Below are positions 35,001-59,517 of a stretch of 64,000 nucleotides of DNA, piece after piece. The notes under the pieces are model-generated. The model was given only the letters and a program-made list of their open reading frames with translations. It was not told where the DNA came from and searched no databases. Source of the DNA: Bolinopsis microptera (taxonomy: Eukaryota; Ctenophora; Tentaculata; Lobata; Bolinopsidae). The stretch covers positions 14,732,169-14,796,168 of the forward strand of contig NC_087072.1 in NCBI RefSeq assembly GCF_026151205.1, read 5' to 3'. The position numbers and the translations under genes were made by a program. The stretch's first letter is position 1; every line of letters begins with the position of its first letter.

Positions 35001-38000
35001 CTGGCCCGAAACAGTTCGATAAAACCTCTGAACTTCCAAAGTTCTCTAGTTTTAAGAGAGCAGATCCAGCTGTTTCGAAGAGCCGTCTAGATTCGATTAA
35101 GAAACTAGCCTCGATTTCGGTGAATGACTTGCCTTCTGTGATTAACTCGACTTCAGTGATTGATCCTGGTCAATCCTCAGTTCAGATTTCTGCTGGGGTT
35201 GGTGGGGAACAGTCAGTCGGTCATGATCAGTCTTCGAGTTCTTCCACTGATGTTCGGGATCAACCTGTTGCTTCTCCTCCTGACGAGCTAGATCAGGACC
35301 TATCCACGAATCCTCCCTTTGGTTCTGTGCAACATATAGAAAACGTTCTTAAAACCGATGATGTTGATTCTTTGAAGTCTTACAAACGTGAAATGACTTG
35401 TAGAAATTTATCTTGTATTAGAGTGAAAACGACTCGTGTACTTCATTTTCATTGCTTGTTGTGTAAGTCGTACTCATACCGTGATTTTAAGAGAGTAGTT
35501 ACGCATATGTTAAAATGTTCTGCCGGGCGAAGTTTTATAACAGCCCCATCTTTGTCCTCGACTTCAGTGATTGATTCGACTCCAGTGATTGATTCGACTC
35601 CAGTGATTGATCCTAGTCAGCCCTCAGTTCAGATTTCTGCTGGGGTTAATGGGGAACAGTCAGTCGGTCATGATCAGTCTTCGAGTTCTTCCACTGATGT
35701 GCGGGATCAGCATGTTGGTTCGTCCACTGCTGAGGTTGATCGAGATCAGCATGTTGCTTTTTCTCAACCCAGAGTATGCTGGGATACGTCTGCAAATTGC
35801 ATTGTTATGGCTTCTAGTGGTAAGAGGAAGCACTATCATTGTCCAGTTTGCGACAAGTCCCACGCATCTCTTTGTCGAATGAATGATCACATTGGTCTGT
35901 GTAGAATCAGAGTAGAATCGTCTGGAAGTGCTCGCCCCGGCAAGGCCGATACCACAAAATTGCTTCAGGCGGAGCTTATTTGTCCATCATCAGGTACGTA
36001 TCTTGTTAGGCGGTGCGCCCAGGGGCCCGCTAGTCCAGTTCATGTAGTTCATAATAAGAATGGTTGGGAGTGTACCGCACCTCTTTGTCGTGATTTTTAC
36101 AACTTCCACAACGGTAGCTTAAATCCAGGTTTTTTGTGTCAACACGTACTAGCTTGTGTAAACCGTAACCTCAATGTTCAGCCAGATTTAATTGATAGTG
36201 TTCTTACATACGATAGTTTTGGTGATGATGATAAGAATCTCATAATGGCTTTTTGTAAAACAGCTAGGGATTTCGGTCTTCCGGTCATCAAGCAGTACAT
36301 TCCCACTATGGTAGATATATGCAGTACTTCTCGATATATCTACTATAGTGTGTTTGCTGGTGATGAGAAGCCGAAATACTACAGTAAGTTAGGGCGTGTA
36401 ATAGTTACTTATGATAGGTGTAGTAAAACACATAAATGTGAGTGTGGCATCAAATCTTGTCTTCATCGGAAAGTTGCAGTTCTCGCATCAGAGATTAATC
36501 CGGTTATTGGTGAGTCACGCCCCGAGGATGACAGTGACCCCAATGAACTGATGTTTGCAGAAGCGATGATGCAATATGTACTAAAGAACAAAGTCATACC
36601 CTTTGACGTGACTGGATTTAAGGATCACTCACCAAAGGCGGAGTTTGCTCCGATTGAAACAAAGTGTCACAAATGTACTGATGTTGATCTTGTAACCTTT
36701 GACGTGAGCAACCGTGGCTGTATATTCACCATGCATGAAAAGAAAACAGGTGTTAAAGTTGTCACTAAGAATTGTCCTATTTGCTCCATGAGGTATAGAT
36801 ATGCCGAGTATTCAGAAGGTTATTTCAATTTTAATAATAATTCATTTTTCTCTATTTCTCTGATGGAAGTTGCTCTCGCAGCTTGGATCAAGAACACTTC
36901 GTTGACTGCTTTTTTTGAGATAATGTCAGTTATGACCGACGTTAAATACAACATCCACCTCTTACTTGACGCTGTTAAAGCATACATGGCCTTAAAGGAT
37001 TTGAATCTTGATAAAACTCTTAATTGTTATAGGTGTGGCCATTTTCCTGTTTATTTGACGTACGATGTAATAAGGAGTGTTTGTTTTGATGTTAAACCTG
37101 GTGAAGTAACTAACCATGAGTATTCTAGCTCTTCAGCAATGCATTTAAATTGTTCACAGCACAATCTATCTAGGTCATATCTTGATAAGAAATCTCCTCA
37201 TTACAGTAGCAATGTTAAGCACTTCTCCATGAAAAAAGGTCAGACTCTTCCACCTATTGTCAGTTCTAAAAATTTTAGTAGTATAGATCCATACACACGG
37301 CCCCTCCTTGCTAATGATAAAGCTGAAGAAATCAAACTGCCATTAGAACGCATAGAACAACTTGTGAATTCTACAAATTCATATAAGCAGCTTAAAGATA
37401 TTTGTAAGTCACTTGATATTGAAACACGTGGAGGCAAGAGCCACATGGTTGCACGTCTTATAGACCTAGAAGGTAATACCCAACTTTATTCAGTAGTTCG
37501 CAAGAATTTTACCAAGCTCACTGGAAAATCTGGAGGTGTCTTACGAGCATTCTGTCCCCATGGTGTGTGCTATGGTATTAAGTTCCTTACAATGCCCGAA
37601 TCAGTGGCCGACTATGCTAACCTTATAACTTCGTTTCAAGTTCAACCTAGCTTTAATTTTTCCGACATAGCAACGACTTGGGGCAATCACATGGAAGGAA
37701 ATTATCCAGGTTTTTGTAGACCATACCGGGGTCGTTTAGGTGACCCCGAGTGCCCAAAGTCGGAAATGTACAAAGATGGTCGTAAAACAGCTATATTTAA
37801 TCATAACACATACACTACCTGCCAGCTTGATATAAGTAGTTACGACCACACTTCAGTTCATCCTATAAGCTTACTTCCATCTGTTCTAATGTTGTTTGAC
37901 ATCTTCCATGAGTCCAATCAAACTTTAGTCGACACGTACTTAAGGTCTGTTAAATGTACTAATCTAGGAGCCTATTTAAATACGTCAGTAGTAGAACAGC

Positions 38001-41000
38001 AGAACCACGTCCTTGCGCTCACAAAAAGTTTTTGCAATGAGATGAGTCCTGAACAGCACATATTGTTTGTATCGTATCTTACTAGTGTCCACAACAAGAA
38101 GATAAACGATGCTTGGAAAAGTCGAGTTGAGAAAAATGTTGGAGAAGAGTGTGTGGTAGATGAGTTGGGATTTCTAGTCCGGAAGGGTGTTGAAAAAACG
38201 TCTTCAAATTCAACCCGTTTTGACACTCCTTCAACGAGTGACTTGAAATCTCCTCACCCGCTGCCTCTTCTGCAAGATCCCTCTTCTGATTCGTCAGCCC
38301 TTAACTCTGTTGTTTATGCGGTGTCATTAAGTAGTATAGGTGAACCTATACTTGATGAGGAGACTTGTTTATGCCACGAACTGCTTTCTTTTGTCTGTGG
38401 CAAGACCCCCTACAACCAGTTAGTACATTTTAGGATGAAGAAGAAGATCGATAAGAAAATTTCAGATGTAAGCGGTTCGACATCCGACCCCTGCTCGATC
38501 TTTTCTATCTGTTTTCTTCCTGATCTGAAGAAGCTTGGTGTACTGCTGATAGAATCTAAAGCAACCTCTTTAAATATGGGAATCGGTCTAGATAATTGCT
38601 TGCAATCTCAGAATTCCATGGTAGACTTCATTGTTCTTACTCAGCCTGATGATGATAAGTATTTTAATGGCGTTTGTTCACATTTTGATGTCTCTTATTT
38701 TGATAGCCAGGTGAGGTTCGAAACTGTTGCATACATAGCTAAGTCCGGCCAATCTATCTATTCAGGCTTTGTTCGTATTGGCGACAATTTTTATGAAATG
38801 ACCAACAGTAAATGTAATCTACTTTCTGAGCACGCCTTTCTTGAGTTTGCTCGCTCAGCCTGCCTAGTAATATTTAAACTTAGTACACCTTTAAGTAAGA
38901 AGCCTGTAAATATTCCTGTAAACATTCCTGAAGTAGAAAGTAAGAAACCTGTCAACGTCTTTGAGTTTGAACCTTTGTCAGGGATGAAAAGAGCTGCTCC
39001 CTCAAAAGTACAAATTAAGAGGAAGAAAGTAAAGATGGGTCCGGGTCACACTACAAGACCCGTAAGTAAAACGTGGCAAAGCTGCTCAGATACTGGTAGG
39101 TTAGATTTGTATTCAGAGCAGTTTCGTATTTGCCAGTCCGCCACTTCCTGGTATGATGATATTGTTATTAATTCGTACGCCCTCATGTGCCAGTTCAATC
39201 GTTCCAATTCTTTTGTATATCAAGATACCCTTTTAGGAAGTCGTTATTCGTTAAATGGTTTTAGTCCCGTTGATGGTAAGTTTATTCAAATAGTTAATCC
39301 TAACAATAACCACTGGTTTTGCCTTTCCAACGCCCTTACATTCGTTAGAGAGCCACACGTAGTAGAGATATTCGATTCATTAAGAACCCCTCAGTCTTTA
39401 GAAACATGCATGATTATAGATAGATGTATTAGCAGTCAAATTTTACAACTGAGACCACAGACAACAGTCGTTAGATTTGTACAAACTCAAAGTCAAGGTA
39501 ATGGGTATGACTGTGGGCCTTTGGCGCTTGGATTCCTTTGGTCCCTATCTCACGGCCACCATCCCTTAAAGTTTCAACATCTCAAAGGACCGACGATTCG
39601 TAGACAGGTAAGAGAAAGTTTTAGAGATAACAAATTTTTAGCTCCATGCCCGTACAAGCGTCCTGATTTGACTCCTAAGAAAATCCTTAGAACTTTCACC
39701 TTAGAACTTCACTCCAACAGGTTTGTATTTAACAACAGTTTGTATCAGTAACTAATATGGTTAAATTATTTGTAATGATTAACCTTACATCATTATTGTT
39801 ATCGATGTATATGAACATTAATTTATGAGTGAATATGATTCAAATTATTTGAGTGAAACGATTTTGGTTTGCACTGAAGAAATCCGACAATCCTAATCGT
39901 CCTAATCCTAATCCTAATCCTAATCGTCTCTTCATTCCTCAAGTTCCCCTGATCTATCCTAGCACTAAACTACCCATTACCTGGACATATTATTATCACG
40001 AACCTAATCCTTACCTGGACAAATTATTGTCATCCTTACCTGGACAAATTACTGTCATCCTTACCTGGACAAATTATTGTCATCCTTACCTGGACAAATT
40101 ATTGTCATCCTTACCTGGAACTGCTGTATCCTTCCCTAGTATGTAACAGTTTATTTACCTGAAACTACTCCTTATCTGGAAGTCCTCGTTATATAGCTTT
40201 ATAGTACTTCCCCTGGAACTTCAACATCTCCTACTACAGCTGGAACTTACATGTCATACCTACAACTTCTCCTTCCCTAACATTGCTACATACCTAAAAC
40301 TTCTCCTTCCCTAACATTGCTACATACCTAAAACTTCTCCTTCCCTAACATTGCTACATACCTAAAACTTCTCCTTCCCTAACATTGCTACATACCTAAA
40401 ACTTCTCCTTCCCTAACATTGCTACATACCTAAAACTTCTCCTTCCCTAACATTGCTACATACCTGTAACTGCTACAATTTGCTATTTGCGTTAAATTAT
40501 TATTATTGAATTTTGATTCATGTCTGATTATTGATTTATATGATTCGGATCTGATTAAAAACAATGAAAAAGCTGTCTTATTTTAATCGAAATAATTACA
40601 AACAATTAAAATGAAATAAGAATAAATAACAAAATAAAATATTACCTAATATATAATAACTCAGAAATGTTGACAATGTAGAAAATATAATGTGACACCG
40701 AAAATCACTATAATGTGTACACGCTGTCAAATGTGATTAGCTGTGTACACTGTACCTGTTCATAGGAATTTCTCTGATTGCTTGAAATGTAAGAATAAAT
40801 GAAGTCATTCAGTGAGGGACAACAACTAAAATTGAACAGTACTGCAGTAGGTATAGATGTGGATACTGGCGGGGAGGTGATCATTGTTTGTTTACATTAA
40901 TAGGGAACACATGTTCAGGAGGCTGAGGAGGTGATCATTGTTTGTTTACATTTTAGGTGGAACACATGTTCAGGAGGCTGAGGAGGTGTTACATATTTTG

Positions 41001-44000
41001 TATTATAGAAGGCTTGTAACACATGTAACGCCTTCTTGTTACCCCCCTTTGAGGACCCCGAATTATTTTCTGAACGAAAGCTCAAAAATAACCGAGAAAT
41101 CGACCTTCTTATTAACTCATTTTGATGACCGTTTCTAACCTAAAATTGCACGAAAAATCGATTTAGCTAGGTTTCAGAACCTATAAACACTTCCTTATTC
41201 CTCAAAATCGATGTTTTATAGTTTAGAATGCAAGCAACAAGCAACATATATTTTGATCCTTCGGTTCTACAGCTCTTGACCTAGGGCTGAAACCGAAAGA
41301 TCGAGGCAATCCTAACCTTAACTGATCGAACTTGAGCGAAGAGCAGAGTACGACAAAACACAGCAGGTAAGCATCTCATTTTTGTGACTGTTTCTCACCT
41401 GTACAACGTTGCACGAGAAATCGATTAAAGTTGGTTTTACAGCCCAATAACGCTTCCTTTTTCCTCAAAATTGTTGTGTTACTCAAACAAAGAACATGTT
41501 GATTCAGAAAATAATTCGGGGTCCTCAAAGGGGGGTAACAAGAAGGCGTTACATGTGTTACAAGCCTTCTATAATACAAAATATGTAACACCTCCTCAGC
41601 CTCCTGAACATGTGTTCCACCTAAAATGTAAACAAACAATGATCACCTCCTCAGCCTCCTGAACATGTGTTCCCTATTAATGTAAACAAACAATGATCAC
41701 CTCCCCGCCAGTATCCACATCTATAGTACTAGATAATCGCATATAAAAGGAGTTGGCAAGATGGTGTAGAATTCTAGAGAACAGTAGATGGGACACAGCT
41801 TATTTACTACATAAACCGTACGGTTAAAATTGTATACATGCTAGACCCACCAAACTTCCCAGGGACACTTCTGATATAAAATATAAATACCAATCGATTC
41901 CAGCTCAATTCGTGGGAATTTAGGATAATGTTGATTTTTTGTTCATTTCGTTCATTCCATGAACCAGGGGAATATTTCGCACTTCTAAGTGACTGGAAAT
42001 GTTAGTACACATGCCCCTCTACCATACCAGATCGATTCCATGTTAGTCCAGGCATAATTACCGCTAAAAAGCATGTTTCTAAAAATGTTTCCAAAATCTT
42101 AACTACTGCTCAGAAACCAAAATGAAAATATTGCCCAGAGCCCTTTCTGAACGAGCTGGACCCACCAAACTTCCCGGGGACACTCCTGGTATCAATAGCA
42201 ATCGATCCTAATCGGTTTCAGCTCAGTCCAGGACATTCTGAGACAATGTTCATTTTTTGTTCATTTCATTCATTCCATGAATTCGATAAATATTTCAAAA
42301 CTAGCTGGAAATGTCAGTACACATGCCATCCTATCATACCAGAGCAAATTCATCTTAGTTTACGGACAAATACAGCAAAAAAACATCGATAAAAAGTTGT
42401 CTCAAACTGTTCCAAAATCTCGGATTCATCTTCTGCGCGAAATCCGAACGACATAGAATTAATTAAAGGGCTCCTATTTTCGCGCGCGTGAGTTAAATTA
42501 GACGACGCGACGGACGCGATATCGTCGCGTGTCAATCAAGTATCATGTCAATGTTGGATTGAGTTTCCTCGATTATCGCCAATTTAATTACAAACTACCG
42601 AAATGCATACATCGTATCTTTGACTAGTGCTTGGTGGTATAATACTTTGGTGAGTCTTCCTGTACCAACCCAGTTATTTTCGTCACGACAAGTTGATTGA
42701 TGATTTTCATTCCTACAGGACGAGATTGACGACGCTGACGGCAACTGCGTGATTGAAGACATAGAAGTCGAGGAGGATGAGACAGAGGAACCACCCCAGA
42801 CAGACCACAAGGATTTGGTTCTGGAGATGACAGCCGACATTCCTTTCGTTATAGACTCTCCTGAACATCTTACAGAGTTAAATGCATTGGTGTCTGGACA
42901 GAGCGACTCTAACGTGGAGGCAATTATTAAGAGAATCGTAGCTTCAAACCATCCGACCTTGAAAGAGGAGAACAAGGCTAAAACCGCTACGTTTTATGTC
43001 GTGCTTATTAAGTATCTTGTCAGCAAATATGGGGAGGGTAAACTTTCAAAGAATGTTCTGGACGTATCTTGTAAAGCACTGTTTTCAGTTACCAAGCATG
43101 TTCAGAAAGAGATTTATAAGCATTTCTTCGATGTTTTGAATTCACTGAAGCATCTCGTCGCGAAAAACACTGGCAAATCTTTGAGTGCAGTCTTCAGCAA
43201 GCGTTATGTTATCTATCTGTACATTCTACAGAGAATTTACCCAGTAACGGACTACAAACATCCAGTATTAACGCCAGTACTCATGTCAATAAACTGGGCC
43301 CTCTCAGCCTGTTCTGTCAAGAAATTGACGGATTTGAAAGTAGGTGTGTTTTTGTGTGGCTTTGTGTTGCAGTGCTCTAAAGGAAGGTATTCTCCAGAGG
43401 TCATCTACTTTCTGACTCAAGTTTTAAGATGTTTGGCTACAGCGACCTCTGCAAAAAGCCAGGAATATGTCAGCAATTTCAAGATCAGGCCAGATGGCTT
43501 GGCTGACAACACAAAACCGGGAAAGTTGTCGATCAGTCAGTTATATGACAATCATACCTCGAAATCAGATGTCATATATGCTTTGTTAATGATCACAAGG
43601 ACTGCAATGCGAAACGCTAACGACTTCACTGGGTTCAGCGGAGTATTTCATCCTCTTGTAGAATCCCTGAAACATGTGCAGGCTGAACAGTGGCACACTG
43701 ATATCCAGTCCTTCATCACATCTCTCACTGCTTCATACGACCAATACTCTCAGAAAATAATGCCTTTCCTACGGTATCAAAACATTAAGCCCGTTTCAAT
43801 CAAAATGTACGAACCTAAATTCGGAGATGTCTTTGTGAGAGACAGGAAGGACAAGGATGAGACCAAATATTTGAAGAAGAAGATTAAGACTGAGATGAAG
43901 GGAGCTATCCGCGAGATTAGAAAGGATAACAAGTTTATCAGCCGTGTGAAACACAAGGAGCAAGAGAGTTCTGATAAGGCGAGGAAACGTAAGGTCAACG

Positions 44001-44077
44001 AAATTATGGGCTTCTTGAGCAAGGAGCAGGGAGAGGCCAATGATTTGAAATACAGAAAGAAGAGGGGACAGATTTAG
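17065..44077 (+). CDS. NOP14: NOP14, small-subunit processome factor with one giant intron
   Basis: Nucleolar protein needed for 18S rRNA maturation and 40S assembly. Eight exons: 17065-17142, 17363-17458, 18008-18260, 18474-18604, 18805-19016, 19155-19372, 19491-19657 and 42719-44077. Every junction is GT-AG and the phases agree, giving about 837 aa (human NOP14 is 857). Recognisable segments: NPFEVYHKK and GMPGVSRSRA near the N-terminus, AFVDERFG, SAEDKMMARF, the acidic stretch in exon 7, then IRKDNKFISRV and ARKRKVNEIMGFL near the C-terminus. Intron 7 (19658-42718) is about 23 kb, against 130-550 bp for the other introns. It carries two GPCR loci and a large transposon. The sequence looks functional; whether the giant intron is spliced in vivo is inferred. 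Confidence 0.93.
19658..20290. other. start of NOP14 intron 7
   Basis: Begins GTAAGAACTA, with GATAGAGGTAAGAACTAAAGA repeated just after the splice site, so two or three possible donors are stacked. The rest is AT-rich with no gene signal until the duplicated segment at 20291. Confidence 0.5.
20291..20773. repeat. 483-bp direct repeat, left copy (partner 26441-26922)
   Basis: Begins AGTATCCAAATTTAG and ends GTGATCATAGTTG. The same sequence is at 26441-26922 in the same orientation. I find one difference, a T fewer in a poly-T run near 26650. The two copies bracket the truncated GPCR exon and the 391-bp array, so this is a recent segmental duplication, not a transposon family. The right copy begins abruptly within a 391-bp unit at 26440/26441. 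Confidence 0.9.
20842..21612 (-). pseudogene. class A GPCR, 3' part only (TM3 to TM7)
   Basis: Rhodopsin-type receptor fragment of about 257 codons. From the N-terminal side: TM3 with MTTSRLLILQYPFR (TSR where most receptors have DRY), TM4, a cysteine in the second extracellular loop (YTCDYNF), TM5, TM6 (FLVTIIPN) and TM7 with NFFIY in the NPxxY position. A stop lies upstream in frame, and a splice acceptor (GTGTTAG at about 21606-21612) probably opened this exon. The exon for TM1 and TM2 is not seen. Where it should lie there is the 391-bp array, then a copy of the 3' flank. The gene therefore appears beheaded by rearrangement. A distant first exon cannot be excluded. Confidence 0.7.
21544..26440. 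repeat. 391-bp tandem array, 12.5 copies
   Basis: ATAGTTGTGGAACACAAC recurs exactly every 391 bp from 21544 to 26236: twelve full units and a 205-bp partial one. Units are almost identical. The first lies partly inside the GPCR exon: the unit begins in TM3 codons on the minus strand and runs through the splice acceptor into upstream sequence. Marker differences (GATCTTTGAC versus GATCTTGGAC) alternate between neighbours from 22888 to about 24840, indicating amplification as 782-bp dimers. Repeated minus-strand ORFs of 72 and 79 codons are by-products of the repetition, not genes. Confidence 0.95.
26441..26922. repeat. 483-bp direct repeat, right copy
   Basis: Nearly identical partner of 20291-20773. 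Here it follows a truncated 391-bp unit on its left and runs on its right into sequence not related to the GPCR fragment. Together the copies show how the array was inserted or expanded between duplicated flanks. Confidence 0.9.
26923..27556. other. upstream region of the intact GPCR gene
   Basis: AT-rich with no gene. It presumably contains the promoter and 5' UTR of the GPCR starting at 27557. No clear TATA box can be assigned. Confidence 0.35.
27557..28733 (+). CDS. class A (rhodopsin-like) G-protein-coupled receptor
   Basis: Seven-transmembrane receptor in two exons, 27557-28098 and 28238-28733. The junction (TGCAG|GTTTTT, TTATCAG) restores phase and gives 345 aa. The N-terminus has NQS (possible glycosylation). 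TM1 has SGNSIIL, TM2 LAISDI, and TM3 starts at the conserved cysteine (CTLSSYL) and ends VNK in place of DRY. TM4 and an extracellular-loop cysteine (RICRCIS) follow, TM6 has SFVPYLL, and TM7 ends NPILYY, a clear NPxxY motif. The C-tail is short. Ligand unknown. It lies inside NOP14 intron 7 on the same strand, so it must have its own promoter and polyadenylation signal. Its last codons form the first unit of a 53-bp array. Confidence 0.88.
28715..29028. repeat. 53-bp tandem array, 6 copies, beginning at the GPCR stop codon
   Basis: CTATAAACAGAGCGTGATTG occurs at 28717 and then every 53 bp to 28982. The first unit encodes the last residues of the receptor and its TGA; later copies lie in its 3' UTR. 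Units differ at only a few bases (GCAGTCC or GCTGTCC, GAAGGAC or GAAGAAC). Confidence 0.95.
29029..29869. other. intronic spacer between the GPCR and the transposon
   Basis: AT-rich. No gene, repeat array or clear inverted repeat was recognised. The sequence at about 29813-29841 forms a short stem (AAACCGCG with CGCGGTTT). Confidence 0.4.
29925..32965. repeat. 325-bp tandem array, about 9.4 copies
   Basis: TGGGGCAGTAGTTATGCCTG starts at 29971, 30296, 30621 and so on to 32896, exactly 325 bp apart. Units are nearly identical. Variants (GTGGCCC or GCGGCCC; AACAAAAAT or AACGAAAAT) suggest a three-unit higher-order period in the right half. Diverged reverse-oriented copies lie at 41844-42440. 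No ORF crosses a unit. Probably the left terminal repeat region of the transposon. Confidence 0.95.
33440..33935. repeat. subterminal short repeats of the transposon
   Basis: Variants of CCATAAGAACACGAAC, GGCCCT and TTAATACCACATG recur many times at irregular spacing of about 45-75 bp, with ATGATCTGTTC...GACGTGA between some. Such clustered motifs near a transposon end commonly serve as transposase-binding sites; that role is inference. Minus-strand ORFs over this region are repeat artefacts. Confidence 0.6.
33981..34265 (+). promoter_or_regulatory. putative promoter and leader of the transposase gene
   Basis: A TATA-like GTATAAAGG sits at about 33995-34003. After it come three diverged repeats of about 60 bp built around CCTTxxTCxGxAACGTA and CTACT, up to the ATG at 34266. 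The motif CACCGGACGAAGGGG just upstream of the TATA also occurs at about 33366, next to TTTATAATT. Core-promoter assignment is from sequence pattern only. Confidence 0.4.
34266..34484 (+). pseudogene. N-terminal piece of the transposase ORF, frame-shifted
   Basis: A 72-codon ORF starting at the first ATG after the putative leader and ending 27 bp before the large ORF. The large reading frame is open back to a TAG near 34453, so the two frames overlap. This arrangement suggests one original protein interrupted by a small indel near 34455-34484, or an assembly error. A separate short upstream ORF is the alternative. No domain recognised. Confidence 0.4.
34511..39751 (+). CDS. Zisupton/KDZ-like transposase with SWIM, SAP and Ulp1 protease domains
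   Basis: Intact ORF of 1,746 aa. The N-terminal third is Ser/Asp-rich with two copies of a repeat containing VQISAGV and DQSSSSSTDVRDQ. Two C-x2-C zinc-finger-like segments lie near residues 296-336 and 442-465. A SWIM-type motif C-x-C-x4-C-x-H (KCECGIKSCLH) is near residue 640. A SAP-like helix pair (LKDICKSLDIETRGGKS) is near residue 965. The core near 1010-1210 includes FCPHGVCYGIKFL and VVEQQNHVLAL, resembling KDZ transposases. The C-terminus is an Ulp1/C48 SUMO-protease-like domain with H (NNNHWFCL), D (EIFDSLR), Q (TQSQGNG) and C (YDCGPLA) at about 1599-1667. SWIM, SAP and Ulp1 together point to Zisupton. The 5.2-kb open frame suggests recent activity. Confidence 0.78.
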   Translation: MIYPLLTEYKTFFRHFFPAKHTLEVYEGFNQSSLDKDGSIYSLLSLYSCIITDRAIKFNLLESQNLHNEIVSSFRRSVDSNQLLKFLQTIFLPVDKIRPDVLYSVIIFTTAEMLDLKKSKDAAAREAFKKKLQTQSAKQQAEPSLTDSDDDFEQPPKYRCSDQAGPKQFDKTSELPKFSSFKRADPAVSKSRLDSIKKLASISVNDLPSVINSTSVIDPGQSSVQISAGVGGEQSVGHDQSSSSSTDVRDQPVASPPDELDQDLSTNPPFGSVQHIENVLKTDDVDSLKSYKREMTCRNLSCIRVKTTRVLHFHCLLCKSYSYRDFKRVVTHMLKCSAGRSFITAPSLSSTSVIDSTPVIDSTPVIDPSQPSVQISAGVNGEQSVGHDQSSSSSTDVRDQHVGSSTAEVDRDQHVAFSQPRVCWDTSANCIVMASSGKRKHYHCPVCDKSHASLCRMNDHIGLCRIRVESSGSARPGKADTTKLLQAELICPSSGTYLVRRCAQGPASPVHVVHNKNGWECTAPLCRDFYNFHNGSLNPGFLCQHVLACVNRNLNVQPDLIDSVLTYDSFGDDDKNLIMAFCKTARDFGLPVIKQYIPTMVDICSTSRYIYYSVFAGDEKPKYYSKLGRVIVTYDRCSKTHKCECGIKSCLHRKVAVLASEINPVIGESRPEDDSDPNELMFAEAMMQYVLKNKVIPFDVTGFKDHSPKAEFAPIETKCHKCTDVDLVTFDVSNRGCIFTMHEKKTGVKVVTKNCPICSMRYRYAEYSEGYFNFNNNSFFSISLMEVALAAWIKNTSLTAFFEIMSVMTDVKYNIHLLLDAVKAYMALKDLNLDKTLNCYRCGHFPVYLTYDVIRSVCFDVKPGEVTNHEYSSSSAMHLNCSQHNLSRSYLDKKSPHYSSNVKHFSMKKGQTLPPIVSSKNFSSIDPYTRPLLANDKAEEIKLPLERIEQLVNSTNSYKQLKDICKSLDIETRGGKSHMVARLIDLEGNTQLYSVVRKNFTKLTGKSGGVLRAFCPHGVCYGIKFLTMPESVADYANLITSFQVQPSFNFSDIATTWGNHMEGNYPGFCRPYRGRLGDPECPKSEMYKDGRKTAIFNHNTYTTCQLDISSYDHTSVHPISLLPSVLMLFDIFHESNQTLVDTYLRSVKCTNLGAYLNTSVVEQQNHVLALTKSFCNEMSPEQHILFVSYLTSVHNKKINDAWKSRVEKNVGEECVVDELGFLVRKGVEKTSSNSTRFDTPSTSDLKSPHPLPLLQDPSSDSSALNSVVYAVSLSSIGEPILDEETCLCHELLSFVCGKTPYNQLVHFRMKKKIDKKISDVSGSTSDPCSIFSICFLPDLKKLGVLLIESKATSLNMGIGLDNCLQSQNSMVDFIVLTQPDDDKYFNGVCSHFDVSYFDSQVRFETVAYIAKSGQSIYSGFVRIGDNFYEMTNSKCNLLSEHAFLEFARSACLVIFKLSTPLSKKPVNIPVNIPEVESKKPVNVFEFEPLSGMKRAAPSKVQIKRKKVKMGPGHTTRPVSKTWQSCSDTGRLDLYSEQFRICQSATSWYDDIVINSYALMCQFNRSNSFVYQDTLLGSRYSLNGFSPVDGKFIQIVNPNNNHWFCLSNALTFVREPHVVEIFDSLRTPQSLETCMIIDRCISSQILQLRPQTTVVRFVQTQSQGNGYDCGPLALGFLWSLSHGHHPLKFQHLKGPTIRRQVRESFRDNKFLAPCPYKRPDLTPKKILRTFTLELHSNRFVFNNSLYQ
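39890..40480. repeat. minisatellites 3' of the transposase
   Basis: Three short arrays: CCTAAT repeats (39893-39925), a CTTACCTGGACAAATTATTGT-type unit of about 27 bp (about 40010-40115), and a 34-bp unit beginning CTAACATTGCTACATACC, six copies from 40277 to about 40470. Low-complexity pyrimidine-rich sequence, no gene. Confidence 0.85.
40854..41723. mobile_element. 870-bp MITE with 221-bp terminal inverted repeats, TA target
   Basis: TAGATGTGGATACTGGCGGG at 40854 is the complement of the sequence ending at 41723. The inverted match runs inward about 221 bp (40854-41074 and 41503-41723) and is nearly perfect. TA lies outside each end (40852-40853, 41724-41725). Each arm contains a partly duplicated block (GGTGATCATTGTTTGTTTAC, then ACACATGTTCAGGAGGCTGAG). 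The centre has a diverged direct duplication (about 41120-41222 and 41383-41480). No transposase. The TA duplication would fit Tc1/mariner-type mobilisation (inference). Confidence 0.85.
41844..42440. repeat. diverged reverse-oriented copies of the 325-bp unit
   Basis: GACCCACCAAACTTCC occurs at 41844 and 42159 (315 bp apart). Complementing this region gives the same motif order as the 29925-32965 array: GGTATTGATACCAGGAGTGTCC, CATGAAATGAA, TATGGTGGAGGGG-like. Divergence is substantial, unlike the homogeneous left array. Interpreted as the right terminal region of the Zisupton-like element. Confidence 0.8.
42719..44077 (+). CDS. NOP14: NOP14 terminal exon (C-terminal 452 residues)
   Basis: Eighth and last exon of NOP14, opened by CATTCCTACAG and starting in phase 0 with DEIDDADGN. 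It holds the conserved domain (DIPFVIDSPEHL, NHPTLKEENKAK), helical repeats, SIKMYEPKFGD, and the basic tail with IREIRKDNKF, a probable nucleolar-localisation and binding region. It continues the acidic segment of exon 7 without loss. TAG stop at 44075. The next gene begins 263 bp downstream on the same strand. Confidence 0.93.
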   Translation, partial: DEIDDADGNCVIEDIEVEEDETEEPPQTDHKDLVLEMTADIPFVIDSPEHLTELNALVSGQSDSNVEAIIKRIVASNHPTLKEENKAKTATFYVVLIKYLVSKYGEGKLSKNVLDVSCKALFSVTKHVQKEIYKHFFDVLNSLKHLVAKNTGKSLSAVFSKRYVIYLYILQRIYPVTDYKHPVLTPVLMSINWALSACSVKKLTDLKVGVFLCGFVLQCSKGRYSPEVIYFLTQVLRCLATATSAKSQEYVSNFKIRPDGLADNTKPGKLSISQLYDNHTSKSDVIYALLMITRTAMRNANDFTGFSGVFHPLVESLKHVQAEQWHTDIQSFITSLTASYDQYSQKIMPFLRYQNIKPVSIKMYEPKFGDVFVRDRKDKDETKYLKKKIKTEMKGAIREIRKDNKFISRVKHKEQESSDKARKRKVNEIMGFLSKEQGEANDLKYRKKRGQI

Positions 44078-51000: not shown

Positions 51001-54000
51001 CTTACGGGACACTACGGGACAAGGGACGGATCTCGGGCCTAATAGCTGTTTTTTAATGAGAGGCTGGAGTTTGGACCTAGATGGTCAACGTGAGGATAGC
51101 ATGAGGATTTAGGATGCTCTGCCTGCCTTTCGTGGGGTCTTGTAACCCCTAAAGCAGGTATATCTTATCTAAATTAACCTTGGTTACATCTCGTGCTGTT
51201 TCGAATATATAATTAGATTTATAGGTTCAATATCAAGCAAAAAAGTCTGATGTCATGTACTGATGTTACACTTACATGATCTCCGACGCAAGGATCTCCG
51301 AAGTCCGATCTTAAAGTTGGGTCTCAGAGCCAAAAAGAGGAACGTAAGCCTTGGTTCCTTTCTTTGAGAGTCAAACAGGAAATTCGGGGTTATCAACTCA
51401 AACTCGGATTCGTAGCACAATTAAAAAACCAAAGAATAAAAATCTTAATGAATTTCCCGACATTCTAAAATTAATATCAGTTCGTATTCATATATATATA
51501 TATAGCCTGACTGACAATTTTCTCGACTGACTGACAATGTTTCTTCTTTTCCCCATTTAGAATACAAAGATTAGTACATTTTAGCTTATGATTAATATTA
51601 TATTTTTACCTATAGTTTACCTAGATCAATTCAGTGGCCCAAACTCCAGTAGGTTACAAGACTTAAGTTCAATTCGAGGAACACTTTGATTAAGCATGAT
51701 CCTTGTCTAGTTGGAGTTTTCGCATATCATGCAGTAGTTATCTACTAATCACTCCTAAACTGAGCGTTTTAGAGTCGAATCTCGAACCCTGCCATTCGGC
51801 CAAGTAATCTTAATCTGAAGTTCTAGAATTACAGTTCTAATGGTCTAGTACTAATGTATTAGTGCCCTAGATAAGATCTCGAGGCAGCTGTAATAAAAAA
51901 GAGCTAGCCAGTAACCACTTGATTAAAAAACGAGGGAATGACACACATTATCATACGATGGGAAAATCTATGCGAACCAAACCACTGCGGTATTACTATT
52001 ATGGTAAATGAGCTAAATTAAACTGCAGCCAACAGATCTCAATCCAGGGATTACAGACCAATATTGGTCGAGGCAGTGAAGTCAATTATGATTATAAAGT
52101 GGGGTACTTATACAGTTATACTGGTCAGTGGTCAAGCGTCAATCTGGCCCGGATCCAGTGCCGATTTATTTTAGGTCCGGTATTCATGGAACATATATCA
52201 TGGTTTCATGGCATGAATAAATAAAAAGTTTGAAGTTGAATTTTGGTCTGGCACGTCACACATTTTATTTAAATTGGTACCAAGGAAAAATTGTTGGAGT
52301 TTTCACAAATCATGTATTGGTTATTTACTAATAATGACTCCTAAAGTGAGCGTTTTTGAGTATATGATGTGCATAAGTCGGCAATTGCGAACAATCTGCT
52401 GTTTGCAACTGACCCATTGACCTTTACTAAAGAAACCGTAATTTTGAAAAATTGCCATTTCGTAAGACACAAATATGCTGCTGGCCTGGCCCATTAAAAG
52501 AGATGCCCAATAAAGTAGATCATTCTCCAATTTTTGTAGGTGTTTCTGGACACAAAGTGAGTCATCTTACATCTTATGACAAATGCTGTGTTGCTCATGA
52601 GTCTTTAAGACCTTTCTAGTTAACAGTCCAATAGCCCATTTGTGAATACTGTCATTGTTTGCTCGACAAAAATCCGTTTTTCAGCCACATTTCCGAAAAA
52701 AAAGCCTTTTAGGGTATATGTTGCTTCATAAGTTGTATATAAATGTGGCTATTAGGCACATTTTGGTGTATCAGAATAGTCTCTACGACCTTCCTAGGCG
52801 GAAATGCCAAAAATCACGGAAATTATGAACTGCGTCAAGCCAAAAACCGTTTTTTCGGCCATATTTCCGAAACAAAGCATTTTAAGGTATATGTTGCTTC
52901 ATAAGTTGTATATAAATGTGGCTATTAGGCATATTTTGGTGTATCGGAATAGTCTTTAAGACCTTCCTGGGCTGAAATACAATAATTCGAGTGACTGCGA
53001 AACCCTGAAAAAGGGTGTGGCCGAAAACGCCCTCATTGCATGTATTTCAACCTTGCCATGAAGTCCAAATGTTTTAAGAATCATCTAGAGAGGTGATAAC
53101 CGTCGAGAAATCGCTTTTAACACGAAAAGCTAACGAGATTCCGTTTCGTCTCGGACTAAATAAGAAAGTACGTTTGCGCCACTAAATCAAATTTGATATA
53201 TCCGCGCGTTACAACTACGTGACGCGCATTATGGCCAAAACAACGATGAACCTTTGGGTTAGAATCCAAGTGATATCTGTCACGCTGGCTACTTTTATGG
53301 GTTTCTACATCATTACTGTGCTACACATTATTAGTACATTTAAAAAGTACACACCGTGAAAAGGTTCTGCTCCTTTGTGAAGTGCTTTTCGATCTTTTTC
53401 ATGACTGACTCTAGTCCTTTCTTGACCTAGCAATAAGAATTGATAAATAAAACCATCTTAAAGCAAATCATCATAACGGTTAGATACTGGTGACAGTATT
53501 TATTGAAAATTTGTGCAGAAAAATCAAAGAAAGCTTTTCTCTTACCTCTTTGACGCTGTAATCTGTGATCAGAGCTTTTAATTTCTGTTTTGAAAACTCA
53601 GAGTAAAATCCGATCTGAAAATAGGAGATCAGGACATTTCACCGAGAATTTTAACAACATTTTCACAACCTTTAAACAAAACATCACCATATTGCCATCA
53701 GATGGTCAAGTACCATAAATAATCACGGTTGCATAGCTATAGGAATTAGGACGGTAGTGACAACTCATTTTTAGTACGTGAGTAAATAAATGAGTTAGTG
53801 ACCCAGGCCACCACTAATTGCAGAGAGACTTGAAAACTATGTTTAAAACCGTCGTATACTAAACAATATCACTCGTATACTAAACAATAGCACTTGTAAA
53901 CCTCGTACTCGTTTTTTCGTAAGTATTTACAACTCGAATCCCATTTATTGCTGATTGCCATGAGTTTGGTACTGGTCTATGTTCTTGTTGGATTGTTACA

Positions 54001-57000
54001 GATCGCTAGCGGTAGACTCCACAGAAAACTTGATAAAAAAAACCAAGGACCAGACACGTTAGGTTTCCAGATTAAAGAATCCGCTAGATGGAGTGCGTTT
54101 GAGAAAATATGGGAGGAGGTACAAGAGGACATAACATCCGGGGACAAAGACAGTGGCCTGGGCCTATTTCCTGATATAGCCACAGCGTTCCCGCCCGAAG
54201 ACACAACTGAGAAGATAAGAAGATATAAAGATAACTTTGTGCCGGCTTACAACAAAGTTATCTTTCTTCCGCGATACCCAGTTGTCACAGGGATCAACTT
54301 CTTCGCCCTGCTAAGTGAAGAAGAGAAGGGACTATATCTGGGTGCTAATTTAGGAAATCAGACCATAAGACCAATCCTTCAGAAGTTGGCACCTGATGAT
54401 TTGAAGGAGTATGATTTGGAACAGGAAGAAGGTTATGAAGGAGCGAAGGAAACATTCTTTCACCATGAACTCCACCAGTTCGGCGGATTTAGCGAGGAGT
54501 ATGTTAACTTTACACACGAGGGTGAAGTAGCATCAAGGAATACTGGAGGACACTTAGCTGCGGGAATTTTCAGCGCACTGAATGTTCTAGAGAGTGTTTA
54601 CCGTCTGAAAACTATGTTCACTCGATCAGACAAGAAGGTATTCTCACGACAGTTTCTGATGGATTGTTTACATCCCCATCATTGGAAAATCACAAACTGG
54701 TTCCCAAATGAAGTATTTAGATACCTTCATAGATTAAAGAATCTGCCTCTTGAAAGTGATCTCCCTTACACCGGAATTAAACACCATTGTAAAGATGACA
54801 GGAACCTGGACAATGCCATGAGTCACGCTGTCGAGGTGGTCCGTTCGAAAGTATCATTCCCGACTGAACGAGGAATGATGGATCATTTTAAGGGCAGTGG
54901 TCCTGTTTCCGTATGTATCCACGTAAACGATCACATATTTTACTACCAAAGTGGAAAGTCAAACGAGTGTGTTGCAGGCATACATTGCAATCACTTTGTC
55001 ACCCTCCTGGCCTACAAAAAGGATTTCTTCACTGTTGAAAACTCTTGGGGCAAGAAGTGGGGGTTGCAAGGTCGCATGAACATGCTGCGAATGAATTGTG
55101 CTGAAAATCCCAGTGGATCGAGATTCTTTGTCACATCAGTAACTCTCACTATAGTCCAAACAGAGGAAGAGGAAATAAAGGACGAGGCAATAGAAAAGGA
55201 GAGTCACCAGGGAAATGAATACACAACTGTTATGATGAGAGAAAGCCTCATCAACAACAAAGATTATGGGTTTGAAGACAGTATTCAGGTAGGTGATGTG
55301 GTTGTTGTGACAGGTAAATCTATCCAGAAAGGAATGCAAAGCGCTTATGTGAGCCTGTTTGAAAAGGCATCAGACGTCAACATTCCCTACCATATCGCGA
55401 TAGATCAAAATCACCAAGCGATCTCCCAAACCTACTTCTTCGGCCACACACACGCCCACTTTCCAAAGCTTATAGAAAGGCTGAACAAGGAAGATATTGA
55501 CGAGAACGAAACTGTGATCTCGATAGAGTTCACTAGAACCTTTATCCAGACCAGGATTAACGACAAAGCTCTCCAGATCTTCTACCACCAAGCTGACTTA
55601 CATAGTATAGGATCTTTTGAGGTGCATGGTCCAGTCGGGTGGTTCAAGTCGTTGAAGCATCTACGAGTGAAGCGAAGTGGTTGAAGACACACAATTTTAA
55701 ATTCTTCAACAAACACTGATTGTCTAAAATGTTTTAGGTATTTCCTGCATTTTTCCTGTTAGATTCAAATGAAAGTTGTGTTTTAATTTGTTGCCGTCCA
55801 TTTATGAGAGAATTTGGATACTATCGAAGTACATGATAAGCAGGTAAATATAGTGTACAATGTAAATTTGGAATGTACACTGTACATTCTAAATGCTACC
55901 GAATGTGGATTTTGCATTTATTTCGTCGAACAACACAGTATATCTTCCCTGTCATCGACAACATTGAAATTCCGCTCTACAAATGTATTAATTAATTAAA
56001 TACTATTCATTGCTGTCGAGCTTAGCTATCACTTTTACATTAGAGGTGCACCTGACCACATTTATGGAGTGGTGACTATCAATCTGTAAGTCAAAATACT
56101 TAGGCAAGTGAATTAATCCACAATTTATCTATTTTCTGTTAAAGTTGAGTCTTATTAAACTTCAAACATTGTCAGGATACAGTTATATTTAAAAGCAATA
56201 AAAGAATTTGTGACAGAACAAACCTCTTGATGGGGCACTCCAGAGTTCAGCTTGAGATTTACTCCTTCGAAAAACACGTTTATCTTATCAAGTGGTGTTC
56301 CGAGATAAGACTTCACGTACTTCTCCAAACTGTCTTTATACTTCTTGTGGCAATGCTGAGATAGATCAGTGAGCTAGGCTTAGATGGAATTGTTTTAAGC
56401 ACAAAAACTTCCTCAAGATTGATTTTGTATCATAATTAATGGACTAAAAATTAGAAAACATGATAAAATTATGCATAGCATAAGAATGTGTAAAACTAAA
56501 ATTATGAACATTAATCATGCATGACATAATCAATCTGTGTCGAGTTACACTTACCGTTCTAAACTTGTCAAGTCCGTCTATTTTGTTCCTAAATAAGAAG
56601 TGGTAGATGAAATGGTAATTCTCAATCGTCGCTACTTCACTCGGCATCTGGAATGTTATCAGTTCAGTTAATAATATAACTCCACTTTTGACCTATTTGA
56701 CTGCCACTTATTTTGTTCATAATCGCTCCGGTTTTTTTTTCAGGGAGTGCGATTAAAAAACGAATTGCACTGTTTTGAGAGAAATCGAAAACATAGTCAG
56801 TGCGATTACAAAACTAATCGCACTGATTTTCTGAAAGATACTGTAATATCGTGTTCCGCAATTTCCTGCCCATACGCTAACATAAGTTTACATTATATTA
56901 ATTGCACTAGCGTAATAATATGTTAATAATATAGGATGCGTTAGAAGAAATCATACAACTATATCTTACCAAAACCCTACACCGCGGAGCCTTGATGTCA

Positions 57001-59517
57001 GAATGTACATTATTGTACTATAACTTTATTGTACTATTATACTATATATAACGTTATTGTACTATAACTCTATTGTAATATAACTTTATTGTACTATAAA
57101 TTTATTGTACTATAACTTTATTGTACTATAACTTTATTGTACTATAACTTTATTGTACTATAACTTTATTGTACTATTATAACTTTATTGTACTATAACT
57201 TTATTGTACTATAACTTTATTGTACTATAACTTTATTGTACTATAACTTTATTGTGCTATAAATTTATTGTACTATAACTTTATTGTACTATAACTTTAT
57301 TGTACTATAACTTTATCGCACTATAACTTTATTGTACTATAACTTTATTGTATTATAACTTTATTGTATTAATGTAATATTATTTTAAAAACTTGTATAA
57401 ACGCTGCAATGCTGAGCCATTGTCAGAAAAAGTGGCCCGTAGTCGGTGGAGAATGTTAGGACATGTTTTGCGGGGTCCTATTGACGGACCAGCGTTTTCT
57501 TCCCTCATTTTTGCCATCAATACACTGGACTTACCAGGGAGAAGAGGAAGACCCCAAAGCAATCTATTCTCGCTGATTGTGCATGATTTATGTAAAAGAA
57601 ATCTTTATTTGAATAATATCTTTGACCTGCATTATCTCCGTAATTTGAGTTATGACAAGAGATATTGGCGGAAATTGCAATGAAGTTCTTTATTCTTAGT
57701 TTTTGTTTTAGGGAAAGATTAGACTTGGGCGATGTTTTTTAACTATCCCTTGTTTAGAACTTTGATTTAATAATAATATTTTAAGGCACGTGCCTACCCG
57801 CCGCGGGTTAATGACTACAACTGCACTATTTGTATACCTTAGACTGGTGGGTCGAGAACACTTCAATAGACTGACACACCGCTTCAGCTAACTGGGTGTA
57901 ACACAGATCTGAAGTGAAAGTTATCATTAACGTGTCGGGCACTGGACAGGTCTCCGGAACAAATAACCTAAGCATCGTTATAATATGAAGTCGAAGCACT
58001 TGTGTAAATTACCAAACTTATTTAAATCTACATTTGAATTAACAGAAGAAAATTGGGAGAAAATATAATTTTACCCAGAGAAGAGCGCCTGGCATTCTTC
58101 ATCAAAGATTCAGAGAAGAGGAGGAATTGGGTGAATTGTAAAACACAGGATGCAGTGCCTCTTCTCGCCTTCTTGTTACTCTCCAGAATCCTCTTCTTCT
58201 GCATCTGAAACAAGGAGATGTCACTCCCCACTCCTTAGTTCAATATTTAAATATAATATCAAAATTACGAGCCTCCACCCACCCACCGCGTCAAAGTTTT
58301 ATAAAATATCAGTTAATTTGCAGCAGGTCTTACCTTGTGCATTTCGTTGAAGTACAAGTTGCTAGTATCGAGACAGTGACGTAGTACATTGAACAGGAAG
58401 CTCTCCTGCTGGGTGTCATCTAATCTGTCCAGTATACTCAGGTATATGGGGAGGGCGTAGTACGGGTCAAACTTACAGCTGGTGTTTATAAAGCTCTCAA
58501 GCTCTGCTACAAACCTGGTAATAGTGCGGATTTAAGGTTGGGAGAAGGAGCGGCAATTGTAAGGATCCTGGAAGTTACTAAAACCGAATACATCTTTAGT
58601 TTCTAGCGTTGAAGCAACAGTGGGAACATCTGTATGATTGATCCTGCTATTAATGAGTTATAAGTCGACCATCAGATGAGCTTTACTTCGTACATACCTG
58701 CATACATACCTGCATACATACCACACTTTACAGTTTACATACCTGCACAAAACAACCTCTCCCATATCAGCTCTATCTTTCCTGCTCCTGGTCTCTTAAA
58801 GAAATTGTTGATAAACCCTTCCTCCTTGCTCATAGTAATCTCTATAAAGTCAAGCGAGTCTCGGAACGAGGCCTCGAACTGACTCCCATGTGTAACAGTA
58901 AAGTCAGACTCAGATCTACAGGAGGCAATTGAGTCGAGTGAGGTGGTTGAGTTTCCGGAGTGGAGCGAGGATTGAGACTGCAGTCGGTTATTACTGCCCA
59001 TCAGCTTTTGGGAGAGTGCCAACTCTGACTTCCGGGAACCAAACTTTGAGAGGATTTTCTCGGTCGATTTTCGGGTCACTGTGCTGCGCTTGTCTTCGAA
59101 GAATTCTCGTAGAACCTTCTGGTAGGCGGTCTGTGCTGTGACTTGGTATTGTGCAACTAGGTCGTCGTATTTTGGTTTGGCGAAGGTTGACAGCCAGTTT
59201 ACAACCTGTACAGTAGTCAGTTAGTAGTAGTAGTATAATACAGTAGTCAGTTGGAGATCTGCACTGAATTATCAAGAAAATATGTATCTGTCTAATTAAA
59301 ACTACATTCTAAAAACATGGAGAAGTTTGACAGTTTATACTCAGAATTGCTAAAAAAGGATTATTTCTAAAAAGTGGTACATTGAAAATGAAAAGCGGAA
59401 TAAAAGATCCTCAGTACCGGTAGAAGTGGTGCAAGCTTGGAATGTCGTATTGACTGAGCAGCATTCCATGCTGGGGAAGTGATACCAGCCACTGCCTCAA
59501 TAACTCTCTCGCTGAAC
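48055..59517 (-). CDS. EXOC1: EXOC1 (Sec3), exocyst subunit, C-terminal part
   Basis: Exocyst subunit that helps tether secretory vesicles at the plasma membrane. Exons in transcript order: 59517-59418, 59205-58743, 58503-58334 (or from 58514), 58204-58075, 57908-57838, 56647-56555, 56355-56224, 53614-53546, 53426-53355 and 48207-48055. Matches to EXOC1: RELLRQWL...FYR, RILESNKKARRG, SEVATIENYHFIYHFL, YLGTPLDKINVFFEGV, FSKQKLKALI, VKKGLESVMKKIEKHF and a final exon with MQAEFIKQVEGYENL ending before TGA at 48055. Phases agree at all junctions except the first one, where 59418 leaves two bases and 59205 starts in phase 0. Exons for the N-terminal half are not recognised and probably lie beyond the window. 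Confidence 0.88.
48257..48878. mobile_element. palindromic non-autonomous element, about 622 bp
   Basis: AATAAGCGCC at 48257 and its complement ending at about 48878 mark the ends. The inverted match continues for about 100 bp with mismatches: GCACAGAA, GATAAATTTGG, CAAAAGTTG, GTGTGAATAA-like and CACCGTGTAGCA. The interior is AT-rich and resembles 11760-12400. No ORF. It lies upstream of the last EXOC1 exon, within its intron. Confidence 0.65.
49058..49119. other. two adjoining perfect hairpins
   Basis: GTGCACGCGAAGCGTGCAC (about 49061-49079) is a perfect stem with a tiny loop. Directly after it, CACGCTGTAACCCCTT pairs exactly with AAGGGGTTACAGCGTG (about 49075-49119) around a GC-rich loop. 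Origin unknown; possibly the end of a palindromic transposon. Confidence 0.6.
49234..53139. mobile_element. 3.9-kb fold-back element with 1.4-1.5-kb inverted arms
   Basis: ATCTCGTTAGC at 49234 and its complement ending at 53139 bound two long inverted arms (about 49234-50745 and 51780-53139) around a loop of about 1 kb. The arms are highly similar: each encodes the same 68-69-codon ORF on opposite strands (49842-50048 and 52321-52530). Indels differ; the left arm carries extra sequence at about 50173-50318. A motif near 52310-52360 is repeated in diverged form at about 51720-51780. No recognisable transposase, so it is a Foldback-type element or two opposed copies of one element. It occupies the last EXOC1 intron. 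Confidence 0.8.
53948..55684 (+). CDS. secreted papain-like pseudoprotease with C-terminal galectin-like domain
   Basis: Intronless ORF of 578 aa with an N-terminal signal peptide (about residues 1-22). An I29-type propeptide follows (RRYKDNF, then GINFFALLSEEEKGLYLG, about 85-130), then a C1A papain fold. At the active site the usual QGxCGSCWAFS reads TGGHLAAGIFS, so the catalytic Cys is Ala205 and the neighbouring Cys is His202. The catalytic His (CNHFVTLLAY, His349) and Asn (ENSWGKKWG, Asn365) are kept. An acidic linker (about 400-430) leads to a domain of about 140 aa with the galectin strand pattern (SIQVGDVVVVTGK, FFGHTHAHFP, VHGPVGWFK). It cannot act as a normal cysteine protease; a binding or decoy role is inference. 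It lies antisense inside an EXOC1 intron. Confidence 0.82.
   Translation: MLIAMSLVLVYVLVGLLQIASGRLHRKLDKKNQGPDTLGFQIKESARWSAFEKIWEEVQEDITSGDKDSGLGLFPDIATAFPPEDTTEKIRRYKDNFVPAYNKVIFLPRYPVVTGINFFALLSEEEKGLYLGANLGNQTIRPILQKLAPDDLKEYDLEQEEGYEGAKETFFHHELHQFGGFSEEYVNFTHEGEVASRNTGGHLAAGIFSALNVLESVYRLKTMFTRSDKKVFSRQFLMDCLHPHHWKITNWFPNEVFRYLHRLKNLPLESDLPYTGIKHHCKDDRNLDNAMSHAVEVVRSKVSFPTERGMMDHFKGSGPVSVCIHVNDHIFYYQSGKSNECVAGIHCNHFVTLLAYKKDFFTVENSWGKKWGLQGRMNMLRMNCAENPSGSRFFVTSVTLTIVQTEEEEIKDEAIEKESHQGNEYTTVMMRESLINNKDYGFEDSIQVGDVVVVTGKSIQKGMQSAYVSLFEKASDVNIPYHIAIDQNHQAISQTYFFGHTHAHFPKLIERLNKEDIDENETVISIEFTRTFIQTRINDKALQIFYHQADLHSIGSFEVHGPVGWFKSLKHLRVKRSG
55685..56223. other. 3' flank of the pseudoprotease gene, EXOC1 intron
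   Basis: AT-rich with no supported gene. It presumably carries the polyadenylation signal of the pseudoprotease-galectin gene; AATAAA-type motifs occur near 56200. Confidence 0.4.
56705..56950. repeat. dispersed repeat, second copy of 2940-3140
   Basis: Begins TTCATAATCGC, continues through two AATCGCAC motifs and ATATCGTGTTCCGCAA to GGATGCGTTA, in the same order as at 2940-3140. It lies in the EXOC1 intron 56648-57837. Confidence 0.55.
57005..57378. repeat. 16-bp minisatellite, TTGTACTATAACTTTA
   Basis: About 20 tandem copies with single-base variants and an occasional extra TAT. AT-rich and intronic in EXOC1. Confidence 0.95.
57393..57683 (+). pseudogene. LINE C-terminal fragment
   Basis: A 96-codon ORF with ARSRWRMLGHVLRGP and LPGRRGRPQ, the pattern seen at the C-terminal end of many non-LTR reverse transcriptases (W-x-GHVLR, then GRP). 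No reverse transcriptase core is present. It directly follows the 16-bp minisatellite in an EXOC1 intron, antisense to that gene. Interpreted as a truncated relic. Confidence 0.65.

Follow-up and report, generated by a model that had tools for sequence, protein, structure and literature searches.

What becomes of a papain-type protein that has lost its catalytic cysteine and runs on into a galectin-like domain? The question is raised by a gene in the window, by which we mean the whole 64,000-nucleotide stretch analyzed here, from the comb jelly Bolinopsis microptera (contig NC_087072.1, positions 14,732,169 to 14,796,168 of the forward strand). The gene is a single uninterrupted open reading frame (ORF) in one exon, at window positions 53960 to 55684 on the plus strand, and its 574 codons plus stop encode a pseudo-papain joined to a galectin-like domain. 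A sequence-only reading had taken its product for a secreted, glycan-targeted binding or decoy protein. We propose instead, with a probability of roughly 60%, that it is a non-catalytic secreted binding or scaffold pseudoprotease belonging to a family of papain-galectin fusions.

At the DNA level the two halves belong to one gene, as had been claimed: both domains lie in one open frame, and a wrong joining of two genes was rejected on that ground. At the composition of the window, a run of 574 codons would be free of stops with a probability of 1.2e-17. On a codon score trained on 44 other papain-type loci, the frame reached 0.064, the highest of its six frames and above all 286 random window stretches of the same length (best 0.045). 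The corresponding frame of its sister gene, locus L002 (C9:15837425-15839089; single exon, 555 codons), scored -0.030, again the highest of its six and between the random 95% point (-0.060) and the random best. The sequence-only reading had started the protein at 53948, where the codon is TTG, four in-frame codons upstream of 53960, and its residue numbers consequently run higher by four (its Ala205 is our Ala201).

The papain (C1A) domain, residues 182-398 (54503 to 55153), matches Peptidase_C1 (PF00112) at 74.4 bits (expectation value, E, 1.8e-20; cut-off 20.7) over residues 204-378, starting just past the catalytic segment, and among PDB sequences it matches cathepsins and plant papains, the best being ficin (E 1.7e-12). 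The papain fold claimed for it is thus borne out, as are the reported substitutions: in the former catalytic segment (54542 to 54565), Ala201 stands at catalytic Cys25 and His198 at Cys22, accompanied by further losses of Gln19 (Thr195), Trp26 (Gly202) and the GCxGG motif. Between 54992 and 55048, the equivalents of His159 (His345), Asn175 (Asn361) and Trp177 (Trp363) are retained. Because His345 and Asn361 both sit in the right lobe, which is kept, their survival need not mean that an active site stands poised.

To place these losses we used an alignment of 51 papain domains from the genome, the window gene and 50 others, which is part of the family; one genome search lists 77 papain-type matches (matches, not genes) and another lists 104. 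DNA was read at 54 places, from which L036 and L040 (no local match) and L041 (Cys segment off-frame) were dropped, and L009 proved to be L025. Cys25 is present in 46 of the 51 rows, the exceptions being the window gene (Ala), L002 (Trp) and L031, L044 and L063 (Ser). The combination of Cys25 and Gln19 taken to mark an active C1A enzyme occurs in all 46 Cys-type rows, which were chosen for their Cys, and is replaced by Ala201 and Thr195 in the window protein. In at least 85% of the Cys rows, 44 columns are conserved. Of these, the Ser-type rows keep 40 (L031), 33 (L044) and 41 (L063), and three fusion genes with an intact catalytic triad, described below, keep 42 (L024), 38 (L025) and 37 (L023); the window gene and L002 keep 24 each. 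The surviving columns are unevenly distributed, with the window protein retaining 9 of 24 left-lobe and 15 of 20 right-lobe columns, and L002 8 of 24 and 16 of 20 (Fisher p = 0.017 and 0.003, respectively, with the division into lobes and the counts made by hand once the table had been seen). All eight cleft-face columns, which in what we take to be papain numbering are Gln19, Cys22, Gly23, Cys25, Trp26, Cys63, Gly65 and Gly66, are changed in both genes. A Cys25-to-Ser change in L002, suggested by the letters PSW, was ruled out: the alignment runs gap-free back from the conserved Glu and gives Trp at 25 and Ser at 24.

Elsewhere in the alignment, L031, L044 and L063 are papain paralogues with Ser at the Cys25 position, where silicateins also carry Ser. 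L063 is a near-twin of the Cys-bearing L049, so its change may be recent. A cluster of near-identical papain genes (L006, L026 and L029) has long C-terminal extensions; L006, the only one of the three scanned, has two kringle and two ShK stretches.

The loss of the cleft-lining residues, and not of the nucleophile alone, weakens the idea of a decoy acting through an open papain cleft. It also bears on the possibility that the window protein is a sponge, soaking up cystatin-type inhibitors and thereby shielding active papain enzymes. There are precedents, in the available portions of the reports, in an inactive cathepsin B1 paralogue of Trichobilharzia regenti that binds cystatin (PMC7054455) and a Cys-to-Ser cathepsin L of the weevil Sphenophorus levis that binds canecystatin (PMC8583781), and in the genome the many papain-type matches counted above are joined by a pair of cystatin matches that pass the cut-off weakly (E 0.001 and 0.003; the latter is short and contains a stop). 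However, restoring the Cys revived both of these proteins, according to the same accounts (PMC7054455, PMC8583781), which means that their clefts were intact, whereas the eight cleft-face residues of the window protein are changed; we consider a sponge improbable. The weevil enzyme and SERA5 of Plasmodium, described as an indispensable non-enzymatic parasite protein (PMC4671257), resemble the window protein in being papain-fold pseudoproteases with no detected activity (PMC4671257, PMC8583781, as far as the accessible text of each goes). They differ in having a Ser nucleophile, in gaining activity on Ser-to-Cys change and in an intact cleft, and the same text mentions no galectin; the cleft face of the window protein is gone. 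Since its cleft is lost, unlike those of SERA5 and the two cystatin binders, models of a sponge or of peptide binding lose ground, and the window protein may use other surfaces, possibly together with active papain-galectin enzymes.

Past an acidic linker (residues 399-418; 55154 to 55213) lies the C-terminal domain, residues 419-569 (55214 to 55666). Searched directly in the genome, this tail matches itself only. By BLASTP it aligns nearly end to end with the tail of L024 (E 2e-12, 23% identity over 154 residues), and the L024 product matches Peptidase_C1 at 162.4 bits and Gal-bind_lectin at 44.8 bits (cut-off 22.1). When L024 was added to a galectin profile built from nine domains of six genes of the same genome, the window tail matched it with an hhalign probability of 92.6 (E 4.5e-7, score 45.1), against scores of at most 16.1 for 40 shuffles. 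These comparisons support a divergent galectin, with the link running solely through the intermediate L024. The galectin identification of the sequence-only reading is therefore supported by homology with a domain scoring above the Pfam cut-off, and not by a direct Pfam or profile match. Single-sequence AlphaFold2, run with no alignment, gave predicted local distance difference test (pLDDT) values of 34.4 for the tail and 32.7 for the whole protein, which say nothing either way. The galectin matches of L025 and L023 are weaker than that of L024: L025 scores 19.2 bits, under the cut-off, and L023 22.1 bits, at it. For L002 there is no galectin report from Pfam, and the L002 tail by itself matches three galectin profiles weakly (probabilities 8.4, 26.8 and 54.2), rising to 76.7 against a profile of the window and L024 tails; it is tied to galectins by the colinear match of L002 to the window protein. 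As a separate observation, L016 (C4:12105755) and L017 (C7:15943215) have long frames in which a galectin domain precedes a stretch that by eye is transglutaminase- or PNGase-like; in L016 Pfam reports the galectin alone.

In the window protein, galectin descent does not bring the usual ligand residues with it. At eight ligand positions, which we take to be His44, Asn46, Arg48, Val59, Asn61, Trp68, Glu71 and Arg73 of galectin-1, the window protein keeps only the His (1/8), short of what canonical beta-galactoside binding would call for, whereas the counts for nine galectin domains from elsewhere in the genome are 7, 7, 6, 8, 3, 7, 6, 7 and 6 (at least 6 in eight of the nine). Among the triad-intact fusions, L024 keeps 3/8 and L025 and both L023 repeats none; L002 was left out of the count, its alignment being gapped there. 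Glycan targeting by the usual galectin pocket is thus not supported by these residues, and the function proposed by the sequence-only reading does not hold as stated; perhaps the usual sugar-binding chemistry was lacking already in the triad-intact relatives. A glycan-guided decoy or opsonin, in which the galectin-like domain would dock on microbial, prey or self beta-galactosides with the dead papain as payload or decoy, can draw on the galectin ancestry of the tail and on the retention of most canonical residues in other galectin domains of the genome. Both the lone His and the empty or depleted pockets of the triad-intact fusions argue against it, and make it unlikely.

How, then, did such a protein arise? 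The genome contains at least five papain-galectin genes, namely the window gene, L002, L023, L024 and L025, and five is a lower bound because PF00337 picks up neither the window gene nor L002. Of the 47 matches to PF00337, those of L025, L024 and L023 adjoin a papain match (all three under the cut-off in that search; compared by eye). Like the window gene, these three encode a papain domain followed by one or more galectin-type domains in one protein; unlike it, they contain introns and keep Cys25, His159 and Asn175, whereas the window gene has a single exon and has lost Cys25. L024 is a multi-exon gene on C6, whose model joins nine exons across eight GT-AG introns. One exon runs from the last part of the papain domain into the first galectin strands, so the fusion in L024 holds whatever the splice model. 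In L025 and L023, the later papain part and the galectin lie within one shared frame, which likewise counts against two genes wrongly joined. Further differences from the window gene are an ShK-like segment past the galectin in L024, seen by eye and outside the spliced model, and three galectin-type repeats in L023, the third split across two frames. The window protein is colinear over both domains with spliced L024 (query 5-394 of 402, 112.7 bits) and with L002 (E 1e-27, query 190-555).

L002 shares with the window gene its single exon, both domains, the same eight cleft losses and the Trp26-to-Gly change, and is its sister in the tree; it differs in having Trp, with Ser before it, at Cys25 and an additional C-terminal ShK domain (30.1 bits). 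Nearby, L069 (C9:15840570-15840903) is an incomplete, disrupted copy of sequence from the 5' part of L002, with 92.9% identity over 322 bases and two internal stops. The intronless state of the window gene is not special, since 69 of the 77 papain matches sit in open frames of at least 300 residues, and a retrocopy with a visible tail was rejected, none being seen by eye in the window. In this family, introns were either lost by the window gene and L002 or gained by the other three. Viral contigs and prokaryote genomes searched with the window protein gave no relatives, by a method that reaches close ones only.

In a tree of the papain domains alone (51 rows), all five fusions share one side of a branch supported at 98/95, and the window gene groups with L002 (100/98). 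With seven other long rows and L002 removed, the window gene remains with the fusions (94/94, not starred); with the same seven and the window gene removed, so does L002 (100/100). Without either of the pair, the three triad-intact fusions stay together (100/100). Both its colinear domains and the grouping of its papain domain thus place the window gene in the papain-galectin family. The path between the window gene and L002 amounts to 3.97 changes per papain-domain column, yet both frames are intact, which would be hard to explain otherwise than by selection on the two frames. The simplest reading of these sequences is one fusion event, with the cleft then lost in the shared lineage of the window gene and L002, and with an active form probably ancestral to the pair.

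Our preferred account, to which the probability given at the outset applies, would run as follows. The papain-galectin ancestor of the window gene and L002 would have been an active enzyme. Both genes now lack the nucleophile, the Gln of the oxyanion hole, the Cys22-Cys63 pair and the substrate-wall Gly-Gly, with the right lobe largely kept. The window protein would be folded and secreted and would cut nothing; its old cleft would hold no peptides and its tail would lack canonical beta-galactoside binding, leaving the right lobe and the beta-sandwich for binding or scaffolding. The setting would most likely be shared with the active-looking papain-galectin relatives, outside the cell, in digestion or surface defense, and the part played may be that of a regulator or matrix partner. 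A broader evolutionary statement, that the lineage built lectin-guided proteases from papain and galectin and that a two-gene branch hollowed out cleft and pocket while keeping the two-domain frame, yielding a scaffold with neither proteolytic activity nor affinity for the usual sugar, seems to us to have about an even chance of being right.

Several points weigh against this account. Pfam reports no galectin (PF00337) for the window tail alone, and against the nine-domain profile without L024 the tail has a non-significant hhalign probability of 4.2, with a score of 20.6 where the best of 40 shuffles has 18.6. Long branches and unusual composition mark both the window gene and L002, and the program cautions that groupings of this kind may be false; the papain tree is, moreover, unrooted. 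Selection on the window gene is inferred from the genome of one species, and the binding role is likewise putative.

A more specific version would make the window protein a matrix protein of the TINAGL1 type, with an inactive cathepsin and an adhesion domain serving cell adhesion. TINAGL1 is an inactive papain-type, matricellular protein, and TINAG and TINAGL1 resemble the window protein in being extracellular and in fusing an inactive cathepsin domain to another domain (PMC5361709, in its available text). They differ in being cathepsin B-like and in having two EGF-like domains. This version overlaps the scaffold reading and is inseparable from it by sequence; taken by itself, we regard it as unlikely. 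Finally, a decaying, functionless gene still open by chance would fit the very long branch and the broken partial copy that adjoins L002, but two intact frames (574 and 555 codons) so far diverged, and the preferential retention of right-lobe over left-lobe residues in both genes, make it very improbable.

The N-terminal region is consistent with secretion. Residues 1-18 (53960 to 54013) resemble a signal peptide, judged on hydrophobicity alone and with the cleavage site guessed: when the 12-mers of the protein are ranked by hydrophobicity, the top six begin at residues 1-6. Beyond residue 25, the best 19-residue hydrophobicity mean is 1.56, just below the usual membrane-span threshold of 1.6, and there are three N-glycosylation sequons. 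The window protein is therefore likely to be secreted, as predicted from its sequence. Residues 19-181 (54014 to 54502), with an I29-like stretch around GINFFALLSEEEKGLYLG, appear to form a propeptide by their likeness to paralogue propeptides, with which they align in many matches from query position ~104-112. Pfam gives no I29 (PF08246) report for the window protein at E up to 10, with filters that drop most weak matches, and the I29 score of L002 is 9.9 bits, under the cut-off of 24.4.

Other features of the window lie apart from this gene. On the plus strand between 17771 and 44077, N-terminal (17771-18265) and C-terminal (42827-44077) pieces of Nop14 flank a 1746-residue ORF (34511-39751). 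This ORF contains CxC4 (KDZ-transposase associated) and Ulp1 C48 domains and probably represents a transposon that sits in an intron of Nop14. Downstream of the papain-galectin gene, a tandem array at 57010-57368 repeats a 16-base unit 22.5 times. In the genome at large, 25 of 32 matches to PF10613, a glutamate-receptor ligand-binding domain, sit in open frames above 200 residues and ten in frames of at least 900, so that the ionotropic glutamate receptor (iGluR) set is, by these matches, large and largely intronless.

Papain-fold pseudoproteases are familiar, as are galectins; what may be new is the fusion of the two. The combination was one that the sequence-only reading did not recognize, and full-text literature, with partial coverage and few subscription journals, yielded no description of a papain or cathepsin and a galectin in one protein. 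In one paper the two Pfam families are named as separate enrichments, and the main text of the Mnemiopsis genome paper contains neither "galectin" nor "cathepsin". The papain-galectin fusion may be previously undescribed, although the window gene is not alone in having it, being one of five members of which three keep Cys, His and Asn. The presence of triad-intact and dead members of one architecture in a single genome allows a test of the change from protease to scaffold, and of lectin guidance of the ancestral enzyme. For Pleurobrachia, a 2019 review states, in its accessible part, that the responsible proteolytic enzymes have not been identified (PMC6733828). The papain-galectin family bears on extracellular digestion or defense in comb jellies.

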